From contig JAPPLF010000070.1 in assembly GCA_028874215.1 (NCBI GenBank), positions 1-57,909 on the forward strand: 57,909 nt of DNA, in the 5' to 3' direction. Shown one piece after another: positions 1-57,909 of the stretch. Numbering within the stretch: position 1 is the stretch's first letter; each line of letters begins with the position of its first letter. Under the pieces are notes generated by a model. The model searched no databases, had not been told where the DNA came from, and was given only the letters and a program-made list of their open reading frames with translations. A program made the translations under genes and the position numbers. Origin of the DNA: Acidobacteriota bacterium (GTDB taxonomy: Bacteria; Acidobacteriota; UBA6911; RPQK01; JAJDTT01).

Positions 1-1140
1 GCGCCGGTACGCCGCCTCCACCTTGTTCTTCACCACATGCGCCAGCGCCGCCTCCACCACCTCGCGCGGATGATCCGTCTCCTCCGCCGCCCAGTCCCGG
101 AAACTCGACCGGAACCCGTGCGGCACGGCTGCGATCTGGTTCCAGCGCAGCAGCTTGCGCAACCGACCGGAGCCGAGCGGCTTTCCGCCCTCCCGGGTGA
201 AGATCAACCGGGCGGCTCCATCCTCCAGCGTCCGCGCTTCCTCCAGAATCTCCTGGGCCCGGTGGGACAGCGGCACCCGGTGCTCCCGTTTGGTCTTCAT
301 GCGCGTTCCGGGAACCGTCCACATCCTTGCCGCCGGATCGATCTCCGGCCACTCGGCCCACCGCACCTCGCCCCACCTCGCCGCCGTGAGCACCAGAAAC
401 TCGAAGGCCAGCATGGACACGGGCGCCGAGTTCGAGGCCCACACCTTCCGGAGGGCCGCCCCCACCTCGCGATGCGGCAAGGCCGGCATGTGCCGCACCA
501 CGTCGTCCTGTGCTCCGAGGACCGACACGACGCGGTCGCAGGGGTTGTCGGTCCGGTATTCCATCGCCACGGCCCACTCCAGGACCGTGCGCATGCGCTG
601 GCGCACAAGCTGGGCCGTGTGCGACTTCACGTGCCAGATGGGGGCGAGGATCTCCAGGACGTCGCCGCTCGTCACCTCCGAGACCGGCATCCGGCCGATG
701 CGCCGAAAGGCGTAGCGCCGCAGGCTCGCCATCCAGTCGTGGGCGTGCCTTTGATTGCGCCATCCGGACCGCTTCTGCTCCACCACCCGCTCGGCGGCTT
801 CGGCGAAGGTGGGCATGTTGCGCGTGCGTCGTCTCTCCGTCAGGGGATCCCCACCCTCGCGGGCCAGCTTGCGGTTGGCCCGCGCCTTCTCGCGGGCTTC
901 GGCGAGCGAGACCAGAGAAACGCCACCGAGTCCGAAGTCGCGGCGGCGTCCGCGGATGACGAGGCGTTGGATCCAGCTTCGGGCTCCGTTAGGCTTGACG
1001 TAGAGGTACAGGCCGTTGCCGTCGCAGTGTTTGCCCGGCGGGGCGGAGCGCACGAAAGCGGCGGAGAGCGCCTTGTGGGGGTGGCGCCCCTTCGGCTTGG
1101 TTTTCCGGGACGAAGCAGGAGAATCAGTTACATCACCCAT
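1..1140 (-). CDS. P4-type tyrosine integrase, 3' end outside window
   Basis: Site-specific recombinase of the DUF4102/P4 integrase group, which normally inserts genomic islands at tRNA genes. Reading from an ATG at 1140 gives 380 codons without a stop, so the C-terminus lies beyond the left edge. Residues 21-70 form the Arm-binding domain (GLYLYVKPNG, RSWIQRL). The catalytic domain shows the active-site Arg255 in AARWGEVR, the H-x-x-R box at His341/Arg344 (HGFR), His368 in LAHVVKNK, and a probable nucleophile Tyr378 in EAAYRR. Only a short C-terminal tail should be missing. A long plus-strand frame covers the same DNA but is antisense to these motifs. No tRNA or att repeat was recognised next to the gene, so the integration site is unknown. 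Whether the rest of the window belongs to its island cannot be told. Confidence 0.93.
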   Translation of the reverse strand, partial: MGDVTDSPASSRKTKPKGRHPHKALSAAFVRSAPPGKHCDGNGLYLYVKPNGARSWIQRLVIRGRRRDFGLGGVSLVSLAEAREKARANRKLAREGGDPLTERRRTRNMPTFAEAAERVVEQKRSGWRNQRHAHDWMASLRRYAFRRIGRMPVSEVTSGDVLEILAPIWHVKSHTAQLVRQRMRTVLEWAVAMEYRTDNPCDRVVSVLGAQDDVVRHMPALPHREVGAALRKVWASNSAPVSMLAFEFLVLTAARWGEVRWAEWPEIDPAARMWTVPGTRMKTKREHRVPLSHRAQEILEEARTLEDGAARLIFTREGGKPLGSGRLRKLLRWNQIAAVPHGFRSSFRDWAAEETDHPREVVEAALAHVVKNKVEAAYRR

Positions 1141-1291
1141 TACACCATAATAAACGGGATGGAGCTGGATATCAAGGGACGTCAGAGGAGGACCAAACGG
1201 GGTGAGAACGGGTATAAACTAAACAAATACAATCACTTAATAGCTATTCCGGGATCTCATTGGATACCCCTGGATTCTATAGGGGTGTTCA

Positions 1292-56869: not shown

Positions 56870-57150
56870 GGGGCTTCCCGCAGGGATATTTTGGAAGGGA
56901 GCGACCCCCCCAGGGGGTGTGGCGCAGATGTAAATTGCGCCACACCCCCGCGCCCGCACCGGGCAGGAAAAAGGGGGGGTCGCTCCCTTCCGCCTCCGAT
57001 TTCCCCGTGCGGGCACGGCGGAGCCGAAAACATGGCCGTAACAGCATGAGCGACAAAGAGATCGGGGAAATCGCGTGTGTAAGTTGGCAGACTCCCATGA
57101 TGTAAGTTGCCCCCGTTGTCTCCCTTACACTCCCGGATCGACACGGTGGG
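56870..57150. repeat. Structured element, copy 1
   Basis: An outer 15-bp stem GGGAGCGACCCCCCC (56897-56911) pairs perfectly with 56973-56987. Inside are a perfect 13-bp hairpin (56913-56925 with 56937-56949) and a 5-bp hairpin (56952-56956 with 56960-56964). A conserved flank follows (about 56988-57045). Then TGTAAGTTG occurs at 57078 and 57101, and its inverse CTTACA at 57124. Copy 2 begins 626 bp downstream with the same layout. It could be a non-coding RNA, a recombination site or a mobile-element end. Confidence 0.7.
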
Positions 57151-57494
57151 GCGCTCTGTACCCGTCAAAATGAGCTCCCCGGCAAGCGTGTCGCCCGCCA
57201 CGAGAGCGTCGCGAATGTCGTCGTCGATCTCCACGCCAGCGTCGCGATCTTCCGCCCCTGGTCGCCACTCGATGGCCGGTCTCAGCGAGGCCCTGACGCT
57301 GCCATAGCCGTCGAATCGGCCCGCGTCCCTTTCAGCACACTCCGCATTTCTGGAAGAAGATTGCCTGTTCGATCCGCCAGATCACTCCGTCCAGCCATCG
57401 GGGCCGTCCACAGACGCTGGTACGAGCACTGGCACGCGGCGGCTTGCCCACCGCGCCGTTCCGTGCCGCAGCGCCACGCGCTCAGGCGATCCAG
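57151..57494. other. Spacer between structured elements
   Basis: Not homologous between copies. A minus-strand frame (about 57140-57330) reads VEIDDDIRDALVAGDTLAGE with coding-like third positions but has no clear start and no family match. Left unassigned. Confidence 0.35.
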
Positions 57495-57775
57495 ACGCCT
57501 TCCCGGCAGGGATCATTGGGACGGGAGCGACCCCCCGAGGCGATGGCACGGAGAGTGCGGATCAGCCTGCCCCGCTTTGCCGATCCGGGAGGCAAAAAAG
57601 GGGGGTCGCTCCCGTCCACCTCCGCTTTCCCCGAGCGGCACCGCCGAGCCGCGAGGCGAGCCGTAACCCGAATGGGGACAGCAAGTTAGAGGAACGTCGC
57701 CGTGCACATCGAAGAGCCTTCATGGTGCACATGCCCCCCGTTGTCTCAGGTGCACTCCCCGAGCGGCACGGAACC
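57495..57775. repeat. Structured element, copy 2
   Basis: The outer stem GGGAGCGACCCCCC (57523-57536) pairs perfectly with 57600-57613. The interior differs from copy 1 and has hairpins GCAC/GTGC (57546-57558) and GGATC/GATCC (57559-57586). The A-rich run before the 3' arm and the downstream CCTCCG-TTTCCCCG flank are conserved. Word boxes TGCACAT lie at 57703 and 57726 with the inverse GTGCA at 57750, at the same spacing as in copy 1. Confidence 0.7.
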
Positions 57776-57909
57776 CCACTTTCCGGCGATCCAGTTCGAG
57801 CTCCCGGACGCCAGCTCGAACGCCAGATCCCGAGGCCTGCCGGAAGGACCACCACGGCGGATCAACGGAGCCGGCCGGCCACCCGTTCCGGACTCTCGCC
57901 AGCCAGATA

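Follow-up and report, generated by a model that had tools for sequence, protein, structure and literature searches.

The window, a stretch of 57,909 nucleotides that forms contig 70 of a 113-contig, 5.7-Mb genome, carries two members of a large family of hairpin-bearing sites found beside conjugation genes. The family is larger than the preliminary description of this DNA, which dealt with these two copies, had noted. The sites probably represent start signals for cell-to-cell DNA movement that have been kept by many small passenger elements. On the best reading of our comparisons they would function like an oriT with subtype-specific accessory sites, and we assign a probability of roughly 55% to each copy being an oriT-like region from a family of integrative conjugative elements.

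Both window copies showed the outer stem and boxes reported in the preliminary description, spaced 625-626 bp apart. The hairpin region of copy 1 (class A; 56873-56998, + strand; covariance-model match of 143.8 bits) comprises a core, CTTCCCGCAGGGAT, the outer stem, an inner hairpin that bears the word, a small GC hairpin and an A-run. Its outer stem is a perfect 19 bp (100%), with a 5' arm at 56893-56911 and a 3' arm at 56973-56991 (both +), and its inner hairpin (56913-56949, +) has perfect 14-bp arms. A second potential stem, read from the sequence, spans 56997-57073 (+) and pairs CGATTTCCCCG at 56997-57007 with CGGGGAAATCG at 57063-57073. Box 1 is TGTAAGTTG at 57078-57086 (+), box 2 is the same word at 57101-57109 (+), 23 bp after box 1, and box 3 is the inverse CTTACA at 57124-57129 (-). 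The hairpin region of copy 2 (class C; 57498-57624, +; 100.8 bits) has an equally perfect outer stem of 18 bp (100%; 5' arm 57519-57536 and 3' arm 57600-57617, both +), followed by TGCACAT at 57703-57709 (box 1, +), TGCACAT at 57726-57732 (box 2, +, 23 bp after box 1) and the inverse GTGCAC at 57750-57755 (box 3, -). Fold z-scores against dinucleotide shuffles were -9.1 for copy 1 and -5.2 for copy 2. The preliminary description had placed the word at three positions, and all three stand; it had missed a fourth word, in the inner hairpin. In copy 1 this fourth word, identified from the sequence and by a family-wide test, is TGTAAATTG in the hairpin loop (56929-56937, +), and in copy 2 it is a degenerate TGCGGAT (57556-57562, +) at the place where other class C copies have TGCACAT.

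Each site repeats its word three to five times: twice in boxes of direct orientation, once in an inverted box, and once or twice in the hairpin. The distance from box 1 to box 2 was 23 bp, start to start, in nearly every class. A blind triplet search placed the best box-box-inverse triplet 88-91 nt beyond the stem in the window's genus; in a second genus this offset was 123-125 nt. The words include TGTAAGT, TGTGAAT, TGCACAT, TGGAACA, TGTCCGG, CTTGAAAA, CTGAAAAA, TGCCACA, TGGAAGA, CGGCACA and CGAAAA. Among the 41 copies with boxes in the window's genus, 36 had all three boxes in a single word class, and the hairpin word belonged to the box class in 34 of the 41 vs 12.3 by permutation (p <= 5e-5, the floor of the test). 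Because these copies are related, we ran a further test in which a single locus represented each word class. Across 12 unrelated word classes the best 7-mer match of a site's own hairpin was 6.33 vs 5.35 permuted (sd 0.19, p = 5e-5), and the match was strand specific, with the other strand reaching only 4.75. The further copies that we tabulated showed the words changing in concert rather than independently, in keeping with the preliminary description. Recombinants do occur, such as a class C hairpin with class A boxes at L019+489, and the hairpin and box words disagree at several loci, including L177, L186, L201 and L204, which counts against the oriT reading.

A covariance-model search of the genome and its relatives, the route proposed in the preliminary description for finding more copies, was productive. 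The window's genome contained about 32 complete hairpins (E < 1e-10), together with contig-end pieces; its assembly breaks at these copies. Three species of the same genus gave 19, 7 and 5 matches, some of which are one hairpin counted on the other strand too, and 14 other genomes of the order gave zero matches. Weaker matches across 396 genomes of the phylum came mostly from one other genus. Records recovered via the integrase showed the same design in MAGs of Acidobacteriota, Gemmatimonadota and Gammaproteobacteria, and their names suggest that these MAGs include sponge- and coral-type symbionts. The stems showed compensatory changes between copies. In one gammaproteobacterial MAG copy (L207:2672-2850, -) the inner word hairpin is deleted and the class A boxes are kept. 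We also observed a second, hairpin-bearing repeat, about 160 bp long (CAGTCCGTGGTGAAAGTCCCGCGAGC...GCCACGGGCTG; L098:2786-2943 and L111:836-992), which is present in dozens of copies per genome throughout the genus; at L065 a 3.5-kb insertion splits one copy of it, with AACGCAGTC on either side.

The gene context of the intact copies is that of a conjugation module. In G000:C96 (L083) and in the second genus (L236-L245), the site is flanked on one side by the gene for a protein that we call X and on the other by a coupling-protein gene. L204 and L212 likewise contain both genes. The coupling protein is TraG/VirD4-like, with TraG-D_C and TrwB domains, and a Trb-type module (VirB4, TrbB, TrbI, TrbL, CagX-type genes and ArdC) surrounds the intact sites. 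Box 1 starts at a fixed distance before the X stop codon, 86 bp in the second genus and 80 bp in the window's genus, and C-terminal remnants of X adjoin the boxes at 12 solitary-copy loci. On the opposite side, a coupling-protein gene, its fragment or a small zinc-ribbon gene often begins just past GCGGGAAGG. The zinc-ribbon gene family (MTPVTGKMGRMSAPDIHEERLETLR...CPDCGYRSFQRDCPRCGE) was seen to begin just outside many copies (L018:6044 onwards, L073, L081, L023 and others). Pfam recognised no relaxase, among the families listed (25 of 29), in the 54 ICE-region ORFs scanned, which counts against the oriT reading, though X or an unusual relaxase may fill that role. An earlier suggestion, that the two copies are the ends of IS21-like elements, does not fit this context, in which the associated genes are X, the coupling protein and an integrase and there is no istA/istB. 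A cassette site of the integron type, also suggested there, found no evidence in its favour. Directly beyond the conjugation module of G000:C96, at about 8,000-18,000 of L257 (G000:C96:10001-28000), lie CRISPR-Cas genes (Cas1, Csc2, Cas6 and Cas3-like) accompanied by an apparent repeat array.

Most copies, including both in the window, fall outside intact conjugation modules. No recognisable X or coupling-protein gene stands alongside the window copies, which counts against the oriT reading. A recombinase near the copies, which the preliminary description had thought worth looking for, is present: the final codons of an Arm-domain tyrosine integrase gene (YLAGESPERVAGRLR and the stop codon), recognised in the sequence and by alignment to L018 and L017, occupy 57862-57909 (-), where the contig end truncates the gene. 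The contig start likewise truncates an integrase gene of this family at 1-1218 (-), which matches the L009 integrase with E 7e-148. The right ends in L018 and in the window abut intergenic GGGGAC...GTCCCC palindromes. Beside one right end, the host site differs among relatives. Integrase-only units of about 1.75 kb were observed at L018:4285-6038, at L067:1-1751 and in L064 from 5858. Possible cargo near solitary copies includes a cytosine methyltransferase, an N6/N4 methyltransferase and an AAA (AbiEii-like) ATPase (L009:8595-9827, L013:1525-3039 and L015:1445-2791).

Protein X is about 300 aa long and gave no match in sequence searches of Pfam, NCBIfam and PDB. A profile of X compared with PDB gave no significant sequence match, hence no homology to TcpK was detected, and a scan of viral_contigs with X gave no relatives. 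The AF2 model, built from three sequences, predicts an N-terminal winged helix with low confidence (pLDDT 60). The folds most similar to it belong to MarR-type regulators, with no E value below 0.001. The predicted recognition-helix segment is the most variable window of X among eight relatives, with an entropy of 1.49 vs 0.62. L237 and L239 have near-identical helices, and CGGCACA is common to box 2 and the hairpin of both. The X proteins of L240 and L244 differ by 59% in the helix vs 12% elsewhere, and their words differ. In one genus, a partial Mantel test of word distance against helix distance gave p = 0.06 with hand-chosen words and p = 0.16 with boxes only, and over 11 loci p was 0.04; other X segments correlated with word distance equally well. 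Because the Mantel test was weak, we do not claim covariation between helix and word. The X genes of L278 (G000:C82) and L033 (G000:C86) have an identical recognition helix, with a stem within 700 bp of one only. The core proposal of the preliminary description, recognition of the word by pairing or by a dedicated protein, is well supported, and X, a predicted winged-helix protein, is the likely reader.

In the oriT reading, the processing core would be formed by the conserved part of each site (CCTTCCCGC-AGGGAT together with the GGGAGCGACC stem), and the word, in boxes and hairpin copies alike, would be the binding site of X. Words are particular to subfamilies, so the choice of elements to be picked up would lie with X. 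Copies outside intact modules may be mobilizable passengers or relics that retain the site, and an element whose X matches could move them in trans. The observations bear on this reading in several ways. A conjugation module with an adjoining coupling-protein gene is found at the intact copies, while the window copies are solitary. Inverted repeats and repeats of the accessory-protein type are both present. The site also occurs on elements that lack conjugation genes, as in the pWBG749 type: about 32 sites in the window's genome compare with a single intact coupling-protein gene and four intact copies of the X gene, and the other coupling-protein matches there are short pieces or come from translating the hairpin itself. 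Retention of a site whose surrounding genes vanish is expected of an oriT used in trans. A more ambitious version, which we regard as doubtful, is a conjugation family spanning several phyla that would require its address word both in duplex boxes and in a structured hairpin, with a rapidly evolving winged-helix protein as the reader; it would have no recognisable relaxase, X or the neighbouring tyrosine integrase would nick the DNA, and dozens of small elements would share the address.

Some copies are surely relics. That the solitary copies as a whole are dead remains of decayed elements with no present function is possible but not favoured, and it would be compatible with the oriT reading of the intact copies. 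Many solitary copies carry truncated pieces of X or of the coupling protein and stop codons, and the hairpin/box recombinants point the same way. However, the stem, boxes and spacing are intact in most copies even though the flanking genes are gone, and a 1754-bp unit of hairpin, boxes and integrase recurs between genomes of sister species with 86-93% identity.

The strongest rival to the oriT reading is that the site is an operator or leader. X would then regulate transcription of the coupling-protein/trb operon by binding the boxes, and the hairpin would be a terminator, an attenuator or an mRNA-stabilising leader transcribed from the - strand of the window. The layout suits this proposal: X reads toward the site, and the site immediately precedes the start of the coupling-protein gene, the expected place for an operator or leader, with the gene starting 5-40 nt past the Shine-Dalgarno-like GCGGGAAGG. 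The MarR-type folds nearest to X and the very stable RNA fold agree with it as well. However, it leaves unexplained both the roughly 32 copies kept with the operon gone and the position of the word within a long structured stem, and we consider it unlikely.

Still less probable is that the sites are the attachment-site arm region of a P4-type tyrosine integrase, with the words as arm-type sites for the Arm domain and CCTTCCCGC as the core. This was our initial working idea, and it was dropped once the site was found beside X and the coupling-protein gene. The 3' end of the integrase gene does come after the boxes in L009, L017, L018, L067 and L028, the recurrent 1754-bp unit combines the same parts, and two integrase-only right ends also terminate in GCGGGAAGG. 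The inverted core GCGGGAAGG can be read either as the terminal inverted repeats of an integrase element or as the ribosome-binding region of an outward gene. Against the arm-site model, it is X and not the integrase that adjoins the boxes in intact modules of the second genus, where the integrase, if seen, lies about 1 kb off; clade-2 right ends carry neither the inverted core nor the same word change; and one integrase clade occurs with two box classes. The words were not always beside an integrase and at both ends, as attP would have it. The arm-site model accounts for the integrase-adjacent copies, but not for the intact modules.

A structured RNA in which a guide-like word pairs with the inverted box is highly improbable, for although the stems are perfect with compensatory changes and the loop word is complementary to box 3, Rfam searches gave no match, the near-constant 23-bp box spacing suits duplex DNA binding, and the boxes themselves do not fold (z 0.43). 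The guide RNA of the preliminary description is not supported.

If the oriT reading is true, a transfer code is common to sponge and coral symbionts from several phyla, in which short words set which mobile elements a conjugative element can carry. Several passenger elements adjoin restriction-modification or other defence-like genes. The family offers a natural panel of at least 12 words and many X variants, with which recognition specificity and oriT mimicry could be tested directly in organisms other than staphylococci. Passenger elements that have no other transfer gene can be sought with the covariance model.

Among the matches listed in literature searches, none directly described a conjugative family of this type. 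Attachment regions of P4-type integrases resemble the sites in having short direct and inverted words that adjoin an Arm-domain integrase gene; unlike those regions, the intact-module words sit between X and the coupling-protein gene. Relaxase-less integrative mobilizable elements (MGIs) similarly combine an integrase, a helper-like oriT and cargo such as restriction-modification genes (PMC5704250). Unlike MGIs (PMC5704250), the present family numbers about 32 sites within a single genome, its units can be as small as 1.75 kb, and dependence on a helper is our proposal.

In pCW3 of Clostridium perfringens, TcpK is a winged-helix protein that binds 9-nt tandem repeats in oriT (PMC6137059), and here too a predicted winged-helix protein is encoded beside an oriT-like site with a repeated word. 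The boxes of pCW3 are 3 nt apart, whereas those described here are 23 bp apart, start to start, with an added inverted box. In TcpK the wing does the reading of DNA (PMC6137059), but in X it is the helix that varies. A further point of resemblance is that pCW3 is a system with an unusual relaxase, TcpM (PMC6137059), as may be the case here.

A close parallel is the staphylococcal pWBG749 family, which has oriT subtypes, each with its own specificity factor, and oriT mimics on passengers (PMC4652767, PMC8136818). As with pWBG749 and SmpO in Staphylococcus aureus, we observed related oriT-like subtypes with distinct repeats and recombination between variants (PMC4652767, PMC8136818). A small DNA-binding specificity factor per conjugative element, the role that X presumably plays here, and many oriT-only passengers are further shared features. 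The pWBG749/SmpO factor is described as ribbon-helix-helix and acts on plasmids, whereas X is a predicted winged-helix protein of about 300 aa on chromosomal elements. Unlike the pWBG749/SmpO system, the present family, whose transfer we infer, carries its word in a hairpin as well, uses at least a dozen words and occurs in other phyla.
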